Assembly (NCBI RefSeq): GCF_001644605.1 | Contig: NZ_CP011388.1 | Coordinates: 4,755,501 to 4,819,500 of the forward strand | DNA length: 64,000 nucleotides | Reading direction: 5' to 3' | From: Paenibacillus swuensis | GTDB taxonomy: Bacteria; Bacillota; Bacilli; Paenibacillales; DY6 | In this document: positions 38,868 through 48,765 of the stretch, piece after piece | How positions within the stretch are numbered: position 1 is the stretch's first letter | How the letters are laid out: the number at the start of each line of letters is the position of its first letter | Notes under the pieces: generated by a model | What the model was told of the DNA's origin: nothing | The model's database searches: none | The model's input: only the letters and a program-made list of their open reading frames with translations | Translations under genes and position numbers: made by a program

Positions 38868-39203
38868 CTATAGAACGTCCTTCAACGGTTCCATAATAAT
38901 TCGGTTTACATCCTCCACAATAACCCCTAATCGTCTCTCGGCCTCGAATATCCGTTGAATGTTGGGATTCATGTTCAAAATTTCAAACCTTTTCTGCATC
39001 CGGTCCATCTCGTCACTCGATGGGGATTCCCCGTTCATCAGCCTCTGCTGTAACTCCAATTGCTGGCTCCGGAAATCATCGAGCATCCGCTTGCCTTCCT
39101 CATCCGCTTGAATTGCAAGCGCCGCAGCCTTACAGTCCGCATACTCATTGCTTTCTTTAATGGCTTTGGTCAGTTCGTAAGCTTTGTCATACACATTCAT
39201 CAT
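38868..39203 (-). CDS. yheA: YheA/YmcA/YlbF-family protein (111 aa)
   Basis: All-helical small protein. The start MMNVYDKAYELTKAIKES, the middle DFRSQQLELQQRLMNGE and the end EDVNRIIMEPLKDVL fit Bacillus YheA, a relative of YlbF and YmcA. Those relatives form a complex that modulates RNase Y and development; the role of YheA itself is not known. The start at 39203 has GAGAGG before it (an ATG 3 bases later is also possible). Bacillus carries yheA close to yheC and yheD, and here the divergent neighbours are five genes of that family. Confidence 0.8.
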   Translation of the reverse strand: MMNVYDKAYELTKAIKESNEYADCKAAALAIQADEEGKRMLDDFRSQQLELQQRLMNGESPSSDEMDRMQKRFEILNMNPNIQRIFEAERRLGVIVEDVNRIIMEPLKDVL

Positions 39204-39431
39204 TCTCATCCTCTCTCAAATTTGGGCGTACCCAACCTTTAGCTTTTTCCGTTCTCTCTATGCTAACGAAAACTGCAATACGCCTATAAGCGGCGCGGGT
39301 TTGCGAATTCGTCGGAAATGCGGATACCGGCTTATGAACCGCTTTCGAGTTCTGGGATGTTACAAGCACCACTAGATTAGTGTCCTCATATGATGATGTA
39401 TTGAAAGTTGATGCTGGGAAGGAGATCACGC

Positions 39432-40805
39432 ATGCAAAGCTCCAAAATCACAGTACAGGTGCTTGGCTCCAGCATACACGACGAATCGGTCATCTGGGTC
39501 AGTGACACGTTGCTGAAGAAATTCAAGATGTCCGCCAACCAGCCGGTTACCCTTCAGTTTGGCGCATTTCGGATGCAGGTAAAGATGGTATCCATGGTAA
39601 AAGGCGACGGCATCCGTTTGCAGGAATCCACAGCCCGCAAGATGGGGCTGCAAACCACCGTTCAATTAAGGATGCAGTATAAAGCTTCTTCCCATTCCCT
39701 CATCTTGGGACCGCTCATTGGAGTGCTGGTCAGCCGATCTTATTCGCAATTCCCCGATAAGCCCTTCGGTACCATCACTTCGTTCGCCAAGGAACTGGTA
39801 GACGCGTGCCAGAGTCAGGGGGCGTTGGTTTACTTCTTCACGCCGAATGAAGTCGGATTCAATACAAATTATGTGCAGGGCTGGAGTTATTCCGACAGCT
39901 GGTATAAGACGGCTTTCCCATCGCCGGATGTGTTGCATAATCGTTTAACGACCCGAAAACTGGAGAATAAACCCAGCGTACAACATTTCATGAGGGAAGT
40001 AAAACAGCGTCATAACACCAGTGTGTTTAACGAGAAATTTCTGAATAAAACCGAAGTGTTTCAGGCTTTGCAGCATGATCATACCTTGTTGAAATATCTT
40101 CCGGAATCCTATCTCTTCAAAAATTTCACAATGCTCAAATCGATGTGCAGCAAGCATAGTGTCGTGTTCCTTAAGCCTATACGAGGCAGTCTGGGTAAAG
40201 GCATTATCCGCATAACCAAAATGAGCGACAATTCATATCAATGCCATTTTACCAATGTAAACGGTGCTCGTAAACAGAACTTTCCGAAACTGTTAAACCT
40301 CTTTACAGCCATCTCCGGCAAAATGAAAACAACGCGGTACCAAATCCAACAAGGTTTGCATCTTATGGAGGTAGGCAAGCGTCCTGTGGATTTCCGCGCA
40401 CTCGTACAGAAAAATCTCGAGGGAAAATGGGAGATCACCTCTGTCGTAGCCCGAATTGCCGGAAGTCACCACTTTGTCTCCAATATCGCCCGAGGCGGAA
40501 CGCTCAGCACGGTGAAAGAAGCGGTGGCTAAATCGAATTTAACCCCTTCGAACCGCAGTGATCTTTATAACAAGATGCACAAAGCCGCGTTAGACATCGC
40601 AGCAGGCGTGGATGCCCAGATCCCGGCCCATTTCGGAGAATTAGGTATCGATCTGGCCGTGGATGTCACCGGTAAAGTTTGGTTGCTGGAAGTTAACTCC
40701 AAGCCTTCCAAAAATGATAACACCCAACTTAACGATACAAAAATCCGGCCCTCTGTCCGGCGTATGGTCCAATACGCCCGCTATCTGACCGGTTTTACGA
40801 GGTGA
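39432..40805 (+). CDS. YheC/YheD-family ATP-grasp protein, long YheD type, copy 1 (457 aa)
   Basis: An N-terminal beta-rich domain of about 85 residues (SSKITVQVLGSSIHDE, then VTLQFGAFRMQVKMV) precedes the core, which begins LILGPLIGVLVS. ATP-grasp signatures: VFLKPIRGSLGKGIIRI (glycine-rich loop and lysine), VDFRALVQKNLEGKWEI, and GELGIDLAVDVTGKVWLLEVNSKPSK with the metal-binding E-x-N. ATP-grasp enzymes join a carboxylate to an amine or thiol via acyl phosphate. In Bacillus, YheC and YheD are found with the spore coat. AAGGAG precedes ATG 39432. First gene of the five-paralog operon; its stop overlaps the next gene's ribosome site. Confidence 0.87.
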   Translation: MQSSKITVQVLGSSIHDESVIWVSDTLLKKFKMSANQPVTLQFGAFRMQVKMVSMVKGDGIRLQESTARKMGLQTTVQLRMQYKASSHSLILGPLIGVLVSRSYSQFPDKPFGTITSFAKELVDACQSQGALVYFFTPNEVGFNTNYVQGWSYSDSWYKTAFPSPDVLHNRLTTRKLENKPSVQHFMREVKQRHNTSVFNEKFLNKTEVFQALQHDHTLLKYLPESYLFKNFTMLKSMCSKHSVVFLKPIRGSLGKGIIRITKMSDNSYQCHFTNVNGARKQNFPKLLNLFTAISGKMKTTRYQIQQGLHLMEVGKRPVDFRALVQKNLEGKWEITSVVARIAGSHHFVSNIARGGTLSTVKEAVAKSNLTPSNRSDLYNKMHKAALDIAAGVDAQIPAHFGELGIDLAVDVTGKVWLLEVNSKPSKNDNTQLNDTKIRPSVRRMVQYARYLTGFTR

Positions 40806-40810
40806 AACCG

Positions 40811-41932
40811 ATGCTACGTAAACCTCATCAACCGCGTTATGTCGGCATCATGATCTGTGAACGCGGAGGCGCTCTGCCATTTCCCGAGCGCGATTACTTT
40901 CGAAAGCTTTGTCTCCTTGGGCACAGCTTAGGGATGACTGTCTATATTTTCTCACCGGAATGGGTGCGTTTTGAAAACAACCGTACCGTGGGGTATACGT
41001 ATAACGGCAAGATTACCGCCTGGGAAAAAAGTGTGTTCCCTCTGCCCAATGTGCTCTACGATCGTTGCTACTACGCGAATAAGATGAGGTACGACCTTCA
41101 TGCTCCGTTGATCAGCAAGCTAAGAAAGCTGAAGGGAATCCGATTCATGGGATATGGCTTGAAAGGGAAGTGGGATGTGCAACAGGCGCTGCACAATCAT
41201 GAGAACATGCTGCCTCATCTCCCTTATACGGAACTGTATCAAACCTCCCGAGGACTTAGCTCGTTCCTGAACACGCATGGAGAAGCATTCCTCAAGCCCC
41301 ATGCGGGAAGTCACGGTAAGGGTGTTATGCACCTGATCAAGAAGGCTGAGAGTACGTTTGAACTTAAGGGCAGGAATCCACAAAATTCACCTTTTCACAT
41401 TACATTTCGGAATGAACAAACAATGCTTCAATGGGTGAGACGCTTTATGGGCACCCGGCGTTATCTCATCCAGGAATACCTTAAATTGACTACAACCGAA
41501 GGGGAACCTTATGACATTCGTTCTTTGGTGCAAAAAGACGGCGGAGGGAATTGGCGAACGACAGGCATGGCGGTCCGCAAAGGAAAGCAGGGCAGTATAA
41601 CCTCCAATTTGGCCGGAGGGGGTCACGCGGAAGAGGTTATTCCCTTCCTGAGTAACCAATTCGACCAGGAACAAGCCGATACGATTCTGACTGTGCTAAA
41701 CCATCTCTCTTCTACGATTCCCGAAGCCCTGGAACAACAACACGGAAGGCTTGCTGAGCTGGGTATCGACCTCGGGGTGGATACCCAAGGCCGTGTATGG
41801 ATATTGGAAGTTAATTCTAAACCGGGCAGATCCGTTTTCACTCAATTGAACGACCTGAACGCACGTAAAAATTCCGTCAAGTATCCCATACAATACGCCC
41901 GGTATCTTTTGGATCGGCAACTAGGAGGATAA
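40811..41932 (+). CDS. YheC/YheD-family ATP-grasp protein, short YheC type, copy 2 (373 aa)
   Basis: Lacks the N-terminal beta domain and begins with the core (YVGIMICERGGALPFPERDY). ATP-grasp motifs are FLKPHAGSHGKGVMHLI, YDIRSLVQKDGGGNWRT, GSITSNLAGGG and AELGIDLGVDTQGRVWILEVNSKPGR. All residues expected for ATP and metal binding appear present. ATG 40811 is preferred because GAGGTG, which includes the stop of the previous gene, lies 6 bases before it; GTG 40802 is the alternative. The next gene starts 3 bases after its stop. Function inferred from family: ligase acting in the mother cell during coat formation. Confidence 0.86.
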   Translation: MLRKPHQPRYVGIMICERGGALPFPERDYFRKLCLLGHSLGMTVYIFSPEWVRFENNRTVGYTYNGKITAWEKSVFPLPNVLYDRCYYANKMRYDLHAPLISKLRKLKGIRFMGYGLKGKWDVQQALHNHENMLPHLPYTELYQTSRGLSSFLNTHGEAFLKPHAGSHGKGVMHLIKKAESTFELKGRNPQNSPFHITFRNEQTMLQWVRRFMGTRRYLIQEYLKLTTTEGEPYDIRSLVQKDGGGNWRTTGMAVRKGKQGSITSNLAGGGHAEEVIPFLSNQFDQEQADTILTVLNHLSSTIPEALEQQHGRLAELGIDLGVDTQGRVWILEVNSKPGRSVFTQLNDLNARKNSVKYPIQYARYLLDRQLGG

Positions 41933-41934
41933 CC

Positions 41935-43308
41935 ATGAGCATAACCAATTGCAACGTACACTTTACCGCGCAAACCGACAAAGCGATCTATGTTTCCGGC
42001 GCTTTGTTGAAACAGCTTAACCTGGGAGGACGGAAATCCGTTTCCTTCCGCTTAGGCAAAGAGTCCATTCAGGCCACGGTGCGAACGATTAAACGGAAAG
42101 GAAATCATCTATATCTTCCTTCCGGCATCAGGAACACGATACGCGTACCGAAATCAGGCAACATCATGGTGCTGAGTAACACAGATGAAGTGCACATCGG
42201 TCCGCTCATCGGCATTTTAACCGACGGTACCGGCCGGAGCGGCGCATTGCCTTTCAGCGGTCGTACCGGCTTCATCAAACAGCTGCTGAAGGCGGGCCAC
42301 AACAAAGCTTATTTCTTTGCGTTTACGCCGAGAGACATTGATTGGCAACGAGATATGGTAACAGGCTACTTTCTAAATGAGAGCAACGGCTTCACCCGAA
42401 AAACCGTTCCCCTGCCGGACGTTGTCTACAATCGCCTGCCTAGCCGAATCGCCGAAGGCTCCGGATCCATGGAGAGCTTCAAAGAAAAATTCGTGAAACG
42501 TAAAATTGCTTTCTTCAACTGGAGCTTTTTTAGTAAATGGGAAGTTTACAACATGCTGGACGGCGAACAGGAAGCTTACAAACACGTGCCAGAGTCCTTC
42601 CTGAACCCGACGCCCGAACGGATTAAAGAGCAGTTGGAAAAGCACTCTTTTGTCTATCTGAAGCCTACAGGAGGGTCTTTAGGCCGCGGTATTTACCGAT
42701 TGACGTATCATCCCAAGAAAGGTTACTTTGCCCGGTTCCGAAGAGGCGGATCGAACGTGCTCCTTCGGTTCAGCAATTTCAACTCCCTCATGCGCATGTT
42801 GCACAACGGCAATAAGAGCCGAATGAAGAATTATGTGTTGCAGCAAGGGATTCGCCTGATTGAAATCGATTCCTGTCCCATCGACTTCCGTTTCCATCTA
42901 CACAAGAACGGCAAAAATCAATGGGTCGTAGCGGGCATCGGTGCAAAGAAAGCGGGTAAGGGCAGCATAACGACGCATGTAAAGAACGGCGGACAGCTGA
43001 TGACGCCGGAACAGGCGCTAAGCCGGGTATTCGGCGGAAGATCCGATGAAGTGCTGGAGGAAGCGAAGAAAGTGTCAATCAAGATGGCGGAGGCTATAGA
43101 GCGAAACTATAAGCATACCATCGGCGAGCTGGGACTGGACATCGGTGTCGATAAAGACGAGGAAATCTGGATGTTCGAGGCCAACGCTAAACCGGGACGC
43201 TCCATCTTCAAGCATCCTTCTTTACGCGGTGAGGGTAAGCAGTCGTTGACTTATATCTTTGAACATTGCATGTATTTAAGCAAGTTCCGTGTAAGAAAGG
43301 ATGGTTAA
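41935..43308 (+). CDS. YheC/YheD-family ATP-grasp protein, long YheD type, copy 3 (457 aa)
   Basis: Same layout as copy 1: an N-terminal beta domain (NVHFTAQTDKAIYVSGALL, SVSFRLGKESIQATVRTI) followed by the core from HIGPLIGILTDG. ATP-grasp motifs are VYLKPTGGSLGRGIYRL, IDFRFHLHKNGKNQWVV, GSITTHVKNGG and GELGLDIGVDKDEEIWMFEANAKPGR. The usual LVQK is replaced by HLHK, and E-x-N is EAN, so the substrate pocket may differ from copy 1. AGGAGG precedes the ATG. It lies in a run of near-touching genes. Confidence 0.87.
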   Translation: MSITNCNVHFTAQTDKAIYVSGALLKQLNLGGRKSVSFRLGKESIQATVRTIKRKGNHLYLPSGIRNTIRVPKSGNIMVLSNTDEVHIGPLIGILTDGTGRSGALPFSGRTGFIKQLLKAGHNKAYFFAFTPRDIDWQRDMVTGYFLNESNGFTRKTVPLPDVVYNRLPSRIAEGSGSMESFKEKFVKRKIAFFNWSFFSKWEVYNMLDGEQEAYKHVPESFLNPTPERIKEQLEKHSFVYLKPTGGSLGRGIYRLTYHPKKGYFARFRRGGSNVLLRFSNFNSLMRMLHNGNKSRMKNYVLQQGIRLIEIDSCPIDFRFHLHKNGKNQWVVAGIGAKKAGKGSITTHVKNGGQLMTPEQALSRVFGGRSDEVLEEAKKVSIKMAEAIERNYKHTIGELGLDIGVDKDEEIWMFEANAKPGRSIFKHPSLRGEGKQSLTYIFEHCMYLSKFRVRKDG

Positions 43309-43310
43309 GT

Positions 43311-44444
43311 GTGGACATTCACCTGCACGACGTCAGCCACAAACCCGTCTTAGCCATTCTTACCGTGGATGATGACAACGGTCTGTTCCGGGGAAATCGC
43401 AACAATTTCATTGATCTGATCAAGACGGGGAGAGATCTGGGGTTCCTCGTCTATGTGGCGACATGTAAAGAATTAAAGCTTAACAACAAACGCATTATCG
43501 GTTTTACTTACAACGCGGAAAGCAAGACATGGCTGCAGCAGCTGTTCCCGCTTCCTCATGTGGTCTACAACCGTATCCCCTTTCGCAAGGATGAGCTGCT
43601 TCCCGAGAGTCAAAGAGCGATCGACAGTTGCCTGCGCCACCCCAATATTCGGATATTCAATCCCGCGTTCTTTAATAAATGGCATCTCTTTGAGTGGCTG
43701 AAGAAATCCAAGAGCACCCGCAAATACATTCCCGCAACTCGTAAATTAACCACTGCCGCGGAGTTCGGCAAGCTGCTTAAGCAACACACCGTCCTCTATC
43801 TGAAACCGGAACGCGGAAAAGCCGGCGTAGGTATTATGAGAGCCAAACAAACGACGAACAAGGAGCATCCCTTCCGTTTAACGGTGCAGGATGAAAAAGG
43901 CAGTCACACCTATAGGTTCACAACCCTCTCCAAGTTGTGGAGCAAGCTGTCCCGCTTCACCGGAGATGAAGATTATATCGCCCAACAGGGAATTCAGCTG
44001 GCAAGCGTGAGTCAGCGTCCGTTCGACCTGAGATTGCTGGTGCAGAAAAACTACAAAGGACAGTGGGATGTGACGGGCATCGGCGCCCGTGTGGCGGGGG
44101 TGCTTAGCATTACCACTCACGTTCCGCGCGGCGGTTCAATAGATGATCCGGAGAAGTTGCTGACGGTATCCTTTGGCAGTGAAATCGCCAAGAAACTCAT
44201 GGTAAAAGCAAAGCATGCCGCGCATCTGATCGCCAGACAGGTGGAGAAAGGCGCGGGACATTCCCTAGGTGAAATGTCCATGGATATGGGCGTTGATGAA
44301 AAAGGGAATATATGGTTTTTTGAAGCCAATGCGAAACCGATGAAGTTTGACGAGCCCCATATTCGCAAAAAATCGCTTGAACGTATATTTCAATACAGTA
44401 TGCACCTAAGTAAACATTGGCAGGTCAAGTCGGGAGGCGGCTAA
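43311..44444 (+). CDS. YheC/YheD-family ATP-grasp protein, short YheC type, copy 4 (377 aa)
   Basis: Core only, starting at GTG 43311 (DIHLHDVSHKPVLAILTVDDDN) behind AAAGGATG; an upstream ATG overlaps the previous gene and is rejected. Motifs: LYLKPERGKAGVGIMRA, FDLRLLVQKNYKGQWDV, LSITTHVPRGG and GEMSMDMGVDEKGNIWFFEANAKPMK. The glycine-rich loop is GKAGVG instead of GSxGxG, and the residues after the metal-binding motif are PMKF rather than PGRS. This is the most divergent copy and may have altered nucleotide handling. One base separates its stop from the acetyltransferase gene. Confidence 0.85.
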   Translation: MDIHLHDVSHKPVLAILTVDDDNGLFRGNRNNFIDLIKTGRDLGFLVYVATCKELKLNNKRIIGFTYNAESKTWLQQLFPLPHVVYNRIPFRKDELLPESQRAIDSCLRHPNIRIFNPAFFNKWHLFEWLKKSKSTRKYIPATRKLTTAAEFGKLLKQHTVLYLKPERGKAGVGIMRAKQTTNKEHPFRLTVQDEKGSHTYRFTTLSKLWSKLSRFTGDEDYIAQQGIQLASVSQRPFDLRLLVQKNYKGQWDVTGIGARVAGVLSITTHVPRGGSIDDPEKLLTVSFGSEIAKKLMVKAKHAAHLIARQVEKGAGHSLGEMSMDMGVDEKGNIWFFEANAKPMKFDEPHIRKKSLERIFQYSMHLSKHWQVKSGGG

Positions 44445-44445
44445 C

Positions 44446-44919
44446 GTGCGCATTCACGCAATTACACCCGACCGGTATCACCGGTTTAACAAGGGCGTGC
44501 AACAATTTGCCAAACGGCATGGTGACGGCCGCATCACACGGGGCGCTCTGCGCCTGGCTGAAGCCGCTTTAGCCGATAGCTCCTCCTCCAAGGGAAATCA
44601 ACTGCTCCTGATGTCGGATCAAGGAGACATTGCCGGAGTCAGCCTAGTGTTGGGATATGGCGAGATTGCCGCTATAGTCATTGTTCATTCCGAATACAGG
44701 GGACGCCGGGTGGCCCCGCAGCTGATTTCGCGACACGTTGCCGATTTAGGAGCCTATACGTGCAACGTAGCCGTCCATAATACACCTAGCTTAAAGATGT
44801 GTTTCCGTGCAGGACTGACCGCGGTGGGTCTGTTTACAGGACCAACAGGTGTGCCCACACTGCGGTTTATCCATCCCGGCAGCTTCGTGACTTCTACAAA
44901 TTTGAATCAAAGTGGGTGA
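44446..44919 (+). CDS. GNAT-family N-acetyltransferase inside the ATP-grasp cluster (157 aa)
   Basis: The acetyl-CoA loop is visible as VIVHSEYRGRRVAPQLISRHV (motif A, R-G-R-R-V-A) after the beta strands LLLMSDQGDIAGVSLVLGYGEIAAI. Motif B follows with HNTPSLKMCFRAGLTAVGLF. The start is GTG 44446 with GGGAGGCGG just before it. It transfers an acyl group to an amine; its target is unknown. Being translationally packed between copies 4 and 5, it probably works on the same product or protein as the ATP-grasp enzymes (inference from context). Confidence 0.8.
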   Translation: MRIHAITPDRYHRFNKGVQQFAKRHGDGRITRGALRLAEAALADSSSSKGNQLLLMSDQGDIAGVSLVLGYGEIAAIVIVHSEYRGRRVAPQLISRHVADLGAYTCNVAVHNTPSLKMCFRAGLTAVGLFTGPTGVPTLRFIHPGSFVTSTNLNQSG

Positions 44920-44924
44920 ATCCG

Positions 44925-46061
44925 TTGCCTCAACCTGTGCTAGGCATCATGACCTTGTACCTGAACAACCGTAAATATATTGAGGAACGCTCTGTGTTTC
45001 AAAAAATGATCGTCGCCGGCAACGGGCTGGGCCTGGCTTCGTTCGTCTTTACACCGGAAGATATTGATCGTTCCCGCAATCTGATTAACGCTCAATTCTA
45101 TGATACAAGCAAAGCGCGCTGGACCCGGAAGTGGACTTCGTTTCCCACCCTGATTTTCGACCGATGCAGATACCAGCCGAATAAGAGGTTTCATCAGCTT
45201 CAGAATTTTCGTAAAACCTATCCCAAGTTGGTCTATTTGAACCGTCCGATCTCCAACAAATGGGTCATCTACGAAATTATGATGAAGAACAGCCGCATTC
45301 GTCCTCACTTGCCCGAGACCAAGCTATGTATGCGGGTCAAGGACGTGACTGACTTTCTGGGAAGATACAATCTCGTCTATCTGAAGCCGAAGAACGGCAC
45401 CGGGGGACGGGGCATCCTGCGAATTGAGCGAATGACAAATCAGATCTATCTGATTCAAGGAAGAGATCACAACCGCAAAATTATAACACCTCAGCGCGTA
45501 ACCCGCAGCCAAATTACCGAACGATTAAAGAACTGGCAGTTACCGGGTCGTTACCTCATTCAACAAGGCATTCAGTTGAAACTGAAAGACGGACGGGTTC
45601 ACGATTACCGCCTGCTTATTCAGAAGAACGGAACAGGCAACTGGGAAGTGACCGGTTGTGCCGGCCGAATCGGCGCCCACCGCAGCATCACCTCCAATCT
45701 CCACGGCGGAGGTCAAGCGGTGAAGATGGATGATCTGTTAGGCCGTTGGTTCGACAACGAAGATAAAATTAGAGAAGTTAAGCAAACCGCGGATGATCTT
45801 GCTTTGGAAGTTTCCCATTTTGTCGAAGACAAGTACGGCAAGCTGTGTGAGCTGGCGTTAGACCTGGCCATTGACAAAGAGGGGCATGTCTGGCTGCTTG
45901 AGATCAATCCCAAGCCGGCACGCGAAGTATTCAAGCAAATCGGTGAGAGCGACACCTACACCAAGGCCATCTCACGACCTATGGAATATGCGCTGTGGCT
46001 CTACCGTCAGAAGAAGGCGGCTAAAGTGGCCGCTTCCGCCAAACGGAAAGGAATGAAATAA
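44925..46061 (+). CDS. YheC/YheD-family ATP-grasp protein, short YheC type, copy 5 (378 aa)
   Basis: Core only (PVLGIMTLYLNNRKYIEERS). Motifs: VYLKPKNGTGGRGILRI, HDYRLLIQKNGTGNWEV, SITSNLHGGG and CELALDLAIDKEGHVWLLEINPKPAR. The tail is basic (RQKKAAKVAASAKRKGMK). TTG 44925 is preferred because GGGTG lies 6 bases before it; GTG 44916 overlapping the previous stop is the alternative. The junction GGTGAATCCGTTG closely matches the one before copy 2 (GGTGAAACCGATG), which suggests a duplicated gene boundary. Last gene of the operon. Confidence 0.85.
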   Translation: MPQPVLGIMTLYLNNRKYIEERSVFQKMIVAGNGLGLASFVFTPEDIDRSRNLINAQFYDTSKARWTRKWTSFPTLIFDRCRYQPNKRFHQLQNFRKTYPKLVYLNRPISNKWVIYEIMMKNSRIRPHLPETKLCMRVKDVTDFLGRYNLVYLKPKNGTGGRGILRIERMTNQIYLIQGRDHNRKIITPQRVTRSQITERLKNWQLPGRYLIQQGIQLKLKDGRVHDYRLLIQKNGTGNWEVTGCAGRIGAHRSITSNLHGGGQAVKMDDLLGRWFDNEDKIREVKQTADDLALEVSHFVEDKYGKLCELALDLAIDKEGHVWLLEINPKPAREVFKQIGESDTYTKAISRPMEYALWLYRQKKAAKVAASAKRKGMK

Positions 46062-47631: not shown

Positions 47632-48765
47632 TTAAGCGAAGATCGCTTTTCTCGATTTGAAATCCACCGATTTGTAATAGGCATCCGCAACTAGCAGGTT
47701 TGGACCGCAGCAATTCGCGGCAGGGCAATGACAATCCACAGTCTGACCTACCGGGTGAGCGAGCCAGCGGTCGAATATGCTGTCCAGACTCTCATCGGAT
47801 ATGTTGCCGAATGACGGCATGTCCGCGAAATCAGTGACGAATACATCCCCGTTAAACAGATTCAGGTTCAGCCGGTTTCGCCCGTCCGGATCGTTGCGAA
47901 CGGTTACGTTCGGTGTTTGTTTTAACTTATTAAGCAATTTTTGATCATCTTGAAACGGATTGCATGCAAAAAAGGGCAGCGTACCGAATAACATCCACAA
48001 TTCAGGACGGCGCTCATCCAGTAAACGATCAACTGCGTTACGGATTTGATCCAGCGTCAACAGGGGTAATCCAGCCGCAAACGAGCTTGGATACATCGGA
48101 TGCACTTCATGCCGCCCACAGCCCATCTCATGAATCAGCCTGTGAATATCGACTAACTTATCATGCGTTCTGTAATTAATCATCGATTCAGCCGAAACGA
48201 ACATACCCTCACGGCTCAGTTTCGTCGTATTTTCCACCATACGCTCATAAAGCTTCGCAGCGGCTGTCAGTTTCACTTCATGCCCGCTGTTGGCAAATCC
48301 AACTTCATGGAAGTGTTCGGCATTTAAATAATTAAAGGAAATATGCATCACATCGAGCCAAGGCAGCATGGATTCATACCGGCTATAGTCAAGGGTGACA
48401 TTCGAATTCAGCTGGGATTTAATGCCGCGTTCCTTAGCGTATTTCAGAATCGGTAAAATATACTGGTCTACGGTTGTTTTATCATAAGACGGCTCGCCGC
48501 CGGTAATACTGATCGTTTCCAAATGCTCCACTTGATCCAGTTTATCCAAGATCAGCTTCAGAGGGAGTTTAGCGCCTTCCCGCATCGTTAAGGAATCCCC
48601 TACCGCACAGTGCTCACAGCGCATGTTACACAGATTGGTTATGGTCATTTCAACGGAAGTTAGAACATGTTTGCCGTATTTGCGGAGGGAAACGATGGGG
48701 TCCCACGGATCATTTTCAGGAGAAACAGGCCACGCTGTCGGATATAGTAATGATGGATTATTCAT
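47632..48765 (-). CDS. yfkAB: Radical SAM / CxCxxxxC-motif protein YfkAB (377 aa)
   Basis: Radical SAM enzyme. The cluster cysteines are in TNLCNMRCEHCAVGD (CxxxCxxC) and the GGE motif in SITGGEPSYD binds the SAM amine. Near the C-terminus CHCPAANCCGPN gives the extra CxCxxxxC motif that names the YfkAB family and probably binds a second cluster. Substrate is unknown. In Bacillus subtilis 168 the gene is split into yfkA and yfkB by a frameshift; here it is intact. It is followed by the CNNM-type transporter gene after 18 bases. Confidence 0.85.
   Translation of the reverse strand: MNNPSLLYPTAWPVSPENDPWDPIVSLRKYGKHVLTSVEMTITNLCNMRCEHCAVGDSLTMREGAKLPLKLILDKLDQVEHLETISITGGEPSYDKTTVDQYILPILKYAKERGIKSQLNSNVTLDYSRYESMLPWLDVMHISFNYLNAEHFHEVGFANSGHEVKLTAAAKLYERMVENTTKLSREGMFVSAESMINYRTHDKLVDIHRLIHEMGCGRHEVHPMYPSSFAAGLPLLTLDQIRNAVDRLLDERRPELWMLFGTLPFFACNPFQDDQKLLNKLKQTPNVTVRNDPDGRNRLNLNLFNGDVFVTDFADMPSFGNISDESLDSIFDRWLAHPVGQTVDCHCPAANCCGPNLLVADAYYKSVDFKSRKAIFA

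Follow-up and report, generated by a model that had tools for sequence, protein, structure and literature searches.

The stretch of Paenibacillus swuensis DNA analysed here, 64,000 nucleotides in length (the window), contains five consecutive genes for ATP-grasp ligases of the YheC/YheD type together with a gene for a putative acyltransferase, which raises the question of what such a set of ligases makes. YheC and YheD are named spore coat proteins of unknown function (PMC7911427), and the species in which they have been studied apparently retains no more than two genes of an ancestral five. We therefore examined the genes of the operon, their active sites, their distribution and their recurrent partners.

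Organization of the operon

Six genes on the plus strand form a tight operon at 39432–46061, the interval to which a sequence-only reading had assigned it, and comprise five YheC/YheD ATP-grasp genes (A1–A5) and one GNAT-like gene. A1 (39432..40805) encodes a YheD-length ligase of 457 aa with an Asn-type active site, A2 (40802..41932) a YheC-type ligase of 376 aa that is also Asn-type, and A3 (41935..43308) a YheD-type ligase of 457 aa with a His-type active site. A4 (43311..44444), with GTG at 43311 as its start codon, encodes a His-type ligase of 377 aa and is followed by the gene for a putative accessory GNAT-family acyltransferase (44446..44919; 157 aa) and by A5 (44916..46061), an Asn-type ligase of 381 aa. 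The intergenic spacing ranges from −4 to +5 bp: the GNAT gene and A5 overlap by 4 bp, and for A1 and A2 the junction depends on the start codon of A2, with a 4-bp overlap for the GTG at 40802 and a 5-bp gap for the ATG at 40811. Scans for sigma-70 promoters and terminators gave scores no better than those of shuffled sequence.

The PF14398 (ATPgrasp_YheCD) scores were 272 bits for A1, A2 and A3, 264 bits for A4 and 274 bits for A5 (Pfam cut-off 26.8), with nearly the entire model covered, and the ATP loop, the D-x-R stretch and the E-x-N motif from which the earlier reading had recognized five ATP-grasp genes were found in all copies. The reality of the operon observation is thus confirmed, chance being far exceeded. 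The five proteins are only 25–34% identical to each other in pairwise comparison, which indicates that the array did not arise by tandem amplification in recent times.

The first 90 residues of A3 (window 41935–42200) form a β-rich N-terminal domain with a repeated strand-strand-helix-strand order. Judged on strand order alone, this domain of approximately 90 aa looks like a double-psi-like or two-fold β-barrel; no fold is claimed for it because the matches in the structural search were all taken by the ATP-grasp part.

Upstream, a YlbF/YmcA-family gene (YheA-like; 38868..39209, minus strand; PF06133, 94 bits) diverges from the operon. A YlbF-family gene was present in 17 of the 33 array loci compared, and a DUF445-like neighbour likewise recurred at many loci; we take these two to be YheA and YheB, respectively. 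The YlbF/YmcA-family gene is probably a syntenic flank outside the pathway. A YfkAB-type radical SAM protein is encoded near the array at 47632–48765 (TIGR04478, 604 bits) and was also found in loci L009 and L012. Downstream of A5, an opposite-strand HAD-family-like gene recurs in L009–L020, and its family was present in 14 of the compared loci.

Active sites of the ligases

The predicted models of A3 and A5 had a mean pLDDT of 92.4 each. Their closest solved structures were RimK (Z 22.2 for both), LysX/ArgX and GshB (Z 22.2 for A5), and TTL-type ligases ranked below these; a sequence search found no solved structure within the YheC/YheD family. The match to the RimK fold does not fix a substrate, since D-Ala ligases, graspetide ligases and inositol phosphate kinases share this fold.

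To compare the active sites, we aligned 146 array proteins with RimK and GshB of E. coli, which served as controls. Equivalents of RimK K100, K141, D187, R189, D248 and N262 were present in all 146 proteins, and the position of E260 was occupied by Glu in 144 and by Asp in 2. Loss of catalytic residues in most copies, which would have spoken against a set of working ligases, was thus not found; the key residues are essentially invariant. The position of RimK N213, which is Asn in GshB too, divided the array proteins into two types, with Asn in 84/84 of the A1, A2 and A5 proteins and His in 62/62 of the A3 and A4 proteins. The division held clade by clade (Asn in 31/31 A1 proteins; His, at residue 348, in 32/32 A3 proteins; His in 30/30 A4 proteins), and A3 additionally carries Lys at the position of RimK Arg203 and His at that of Leu191. 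Nearly every array in other classes also mixes Asn-type and His-type enzymes, the His-type usually lying downstream. The proposal that the copies have different substrate pockets is therefore supported at the motif level, by five distinct and intact ligases with clade-fixed differences in the active site.

Conservation and phylogeny of the array

We compared 33 array loci, namely 13 from Paenibacillus (the window and 12 named species) and 20 from the order and class of the window. Relatives were compared at the order, class and phylum levels; in that genome set, the genus and family levels consisted of the window's genome only. The survey of Paenibacillus bore out the cluster as a unit: the six genes occurred in the identical order A1-A2-A3-A4-GNAT-A5 in 12/12 named species, at 30–64% identity to the window genes. 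The order A1-A2-A3-A4, with or without A5, was found in 17 of the 20 further loci, the exceptions being L067 (A2-A3), L071 (A1-A3-A4) and the divergent L078.

In a tree of 153 proteins, A1, A2, A3, A4 and A5 formed five supported ortholog clades, with A2+A5 and A3+A4 as sister pairs. Locus L067, which is Bacillus-like and has two copies, contributed its first gene to clade A2 and its second to clade A3, and the B. subtilis pair accordingly appears to be what remains of the array. By way of L067, we infer that B. subtilis YheC corresponds to A2 and YheD to A3, the remaining genes having been lost. Judged from the loci and the tree, the core order A1-A2-A3-A4 is ancestral across the class Bacilli and the two-gene state is a reduction. 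The sequence-only reading had regarded the array as expanded relative to B. subtilis, and these comparisons reverse that direction.

The GNAT gene was less constant. All 13 Paenibacillus arrays carried it, placed after A4 and before A5, compared with only 8/20 other loci, which marks it as accessory and acylation as no core step. The window protein alone matched PF13508 weakly (19.5 bits, below the cut-off of 27); its identification as a GNAT protein between copies four and five is backed by the 12 orthologs, since in the window copy and these orthologs together PF13508 was matched by 13/13 and PF00583 by 12/13, with best E values of 1e-7 to 3e-8. The R-x-x-G-x-G/A signature of motif A is clear in most orthologs and reads R-G-R-R-V-A in the window copy. 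A scan of the named genomes with the GNAT protein as the query gave no matches because this protein diverges fast, and A3 was taken as the query instead.

Copies outside such arrays were also observed. The window's genome contains five further PF14398 copies (L082–L086), four of which are short (approximately 255–270 aa). Three of the five were placed in the tree, all outside the five array clades, and none of the five loci carried the strict sigma-K motif described below. One of these copies (L084) and a neighbouring gene, possibly for a coat glycosyltransferase, are oriented divergently. In another class, a locus with 11 tandem YheC/YheD-type genes was found (L087; G171:C3:94500-114400); several of its members have altered or missing catalytic residues and may be pseudoenzymes or serve as scaffolds.

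Promoter and link to sporulation

A sigma-K-type promoter precedes A1 at 39367..39395 on the plus strand, with a −35 element CACC (39367–39370), a 16-bp spacer and a −10 element CATATGATG (39387–39395). We searched up to 200 bp upstream of A1 for the strict pattern [AC]AC[AC]-N16-CATANNNT[AG], which follows the B. subtilis consensus; the spacing of sigma-K promoters is known from that species (PMC517825). The pattern was present in 31/31 arrays across Bacilli, including 13/13 Paenibacillus loci, versus 0/171 other genes of the same loci and a mean of 0.07 under a first-order Markov null. It was absent before A2–A5 and at the two-gene locus L067. The promoter hexamers were kept in the 18 A1-bearing loci that are more distant, where the flanking sequence had diverged. 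A sigma-E promoter was sought upstream of A1 and was not found. We also tried TCCTCATATGATG as a regulon marker in the window's genome and rejected it, as the exact match was unique and the one-mismatch matches were not promoter-like. From this sequence pattern, the operon looks to be switched on late in sporulation, in the mother cell, by a sigma-K-type promoter.

Among 81 Bacilli genomes, 61 contained both PF14398 and SpoIVA, 5 SpoIVA only, 2 PF14398 only (weak matches) and 13 neither (Fisher p 2e-9, the genomes being counted as independent and their kinship ignored). One genome of the window's order (G022) was without SpoIVA, CotE, PF14395 and any array-strength PF14398 copy. The spore association first suggested for the locus agrees with these results: the operon looks spore-linked by its sigma-K-type promoter, by co-occurrence with SpoIVA and by the apparent operons with CotE found elsewhere.

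CotE and the PF14395 ligase as partners

Ligases of this family lie approximately 2 kb or less from CotE and 0.3–2.1 kb from a PF14395 COOH-NH2 ligase in 12/81 Bacilli genomes and in other classes of the phylum, and CotE-ligase-PF14395 clusters were found in several classes. The strict sigma-K pattern precedes the leading CotE gene in three loci of other classes (L093, L094 and L096). In L095 the genes are arranged as CotE, A1-type, PF14395, A2-type, A3-type, A4-type and GNAT, which is the order of the window with CotE and PF14395 added. Across Bacilli, PF14395 always occurred with CotE (54/54 genomes), and 35 of the 53 pairs on the same contig were no more than 1 kb apart; PF14395 was absent from the B. 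subtilis control. The window's genome has CotE, then the PF14395 ligase, then mutS at G000:C1:4044659-4046792 (L100:3124-5317), approximately 0.75 Mb from the array.

The tail of CotE is very acidic in the window's genome and strongly acidic in most compared cases. By analogy with the tails modified by TTLL enzymes, it may serve as a lead to the substrate. CotE tails are also acidic where PF14395 is missing (L112), so the acidic tail may be unrelated.

Proposed function and alternative explanations

Taken together, a ligase set of fixed order, a sigma-K-type promoter and operon links with CotE suggest an overlooked, enzyme-made, peptide-type modification of the spore. We favour, with moderate confidence, the explanation that the operon encodes amide ligases of the late mother cell and that these build a coat-directed modification of this type stepwise. 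The operon would supply a sigma-K-dependent set of RimK/GshB-like ATP-grasp carboxylate-amine ligases that jointly make an amino-acid or peptide-type modification placed in or on the spore coat. From the fold and the intact residues, each enzyme is expected to activate a carboxylate as its acyl phosphate, with ATP and Mg, and to join an amine to it. The Asn-type enzymes (A1, A2 and A5) and the His-type enzymes (A3 and A4) may catalyze different, successive steps, possibly on one shared substrate as the sequence-only reading proposed, and the GNAT protein, in the lineages that have it, may cap or acylate an amine. The array would act with CotE, which organises the outer coat, and with the PF14395 ligase. 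The weakest step is the acceptor, for which an acidic C-terminal tail, either that of CotE or that of a different coat protein, is a candidate. That the CotE tail is the acceptor is a tentative inference that we consider rather unlikely to hold, and it is equally doubtful that the Asn-type and His-type ligases, together with PF14395, add amino acids to an acidic coat-protein tail, in CotE or elsewhere, as a branched or elongated modification.

An unlikely alternative is that the product of the array, made late in the mother cell, is a free metabolite, a small peptide or pseudopeptide of an antibiotic-like or protective kind, which would be released or held in the coat without attachment to coat proteins. 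Small-molecule assembly fits tandem ATP-grasp ligases with a GNAT enzyme, and A5 matches the GshB fold as strongly as that of RimK. However, no transporter, carrier or amino-acid-modifying enzyme recurred in the 33 array loci, the recurrent partners were CotE and PF14395, and YheD of B. subtilis surrounds the spore as a shell (PMC7911427, PMC7769602). The same protein interacts strongly with itself and spreads over the spore (PMC7911427), as would be expected if the array proteins were mainly structural coat proteins with a retained ATP-grasp fold and irrelevant catalysis; this is improbable in view of the essentially invariant metal- and ATP-binding residues of 146 proteins in five old clades, losses of which occurred only in members of the unusual 11-copy array of another class. 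A graspetide-like RiPP pathway, with the ATP-grasp enzymes introducing cross-links into a ribosomally made precursor, is more improbable still: RiPP-associated ATP-grasp ligases (7mgv, PsnB) rank among the top Foldseek matches, but the spacing of −4 to +5 bp excludes a precursor gene within the operon and no small ORF family recurred beside the 33 arrays, and if CotE itself were the ribosomal substrate, this pathway would merge with the coat-directed modification that we favour.

The protein families are already known and named, and Iyer and colleagues reportedly classified them in 2009 in a comparative-genomic study of amidoligases that may mention some of the operons. In the searched literature we found no function described for these proteins and no report connecting YheC/YheD arrays to CotE, ATP-grasp or stepwise ligation. 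The present analysis pins down residues, a promoter and a partner for exact testing, and a coat-directed modification could bear on coat cross-linking, resistance and the surface chemistry of spores. If true, such a tail modification of CotE or another coat protein would parallel, in bacterial spores, the polyglutamylation of tubulin and be ancestral to spore-forming Firmicutes, and its loss, in large part, from B. subtilis would explain why it has been overlooked.

Comparison with known systems

The window operon and B. subtilis yheC/yheD share the PF14398 family and, as predicted for the window, specificity for sporulation and mother-cell gene control, and the two genes of the Bacillus-like L067, A2 and then A3, apparently match the B. 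subtilis pair in length and order. The systems differ in that two genes occur there and five with a GNAT gene in the window. The two B. subtilis genes are of the sigma-E/SpoIIID type (PMC517825), whereas the window operon has a sigma-K-type promoter. B. subtilis YheD forms a SpoIVA-dependent shell round the spore (PMC7911427, PMC7769602).

RimK and LysX/ArgX are the top solved matches for A3 and A5 (Z 20–22), with the same metal, ATP and D-x-R residues. In regard to the R-S-N motif of RimK, the array enzymes depart from it: no clade has Arg211, nearly all array proteins carrying Thr or Val instead, whereas A1, A2 and A5 keep Asn213 and A3 and A4 have His in its place. The NCBIfam model of RimK (TIGR00768) scored 24 bits and its cut-off of 143 was not reached. 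TTL and TTLL6 have the same fold (Z ~18), match the array ligases weakly in sequence and modify acidic protein tails, whereas their structural match is lower than that of RimK and no tubulin is involved here. The PF14395 COOH-NH2 ligase belongs to a separate Pfam family and is absent from the window operon, but it represents a second amide-ligase family that stands in the ligase operons of other Firmicutes and beside CotE in the genome studied here.
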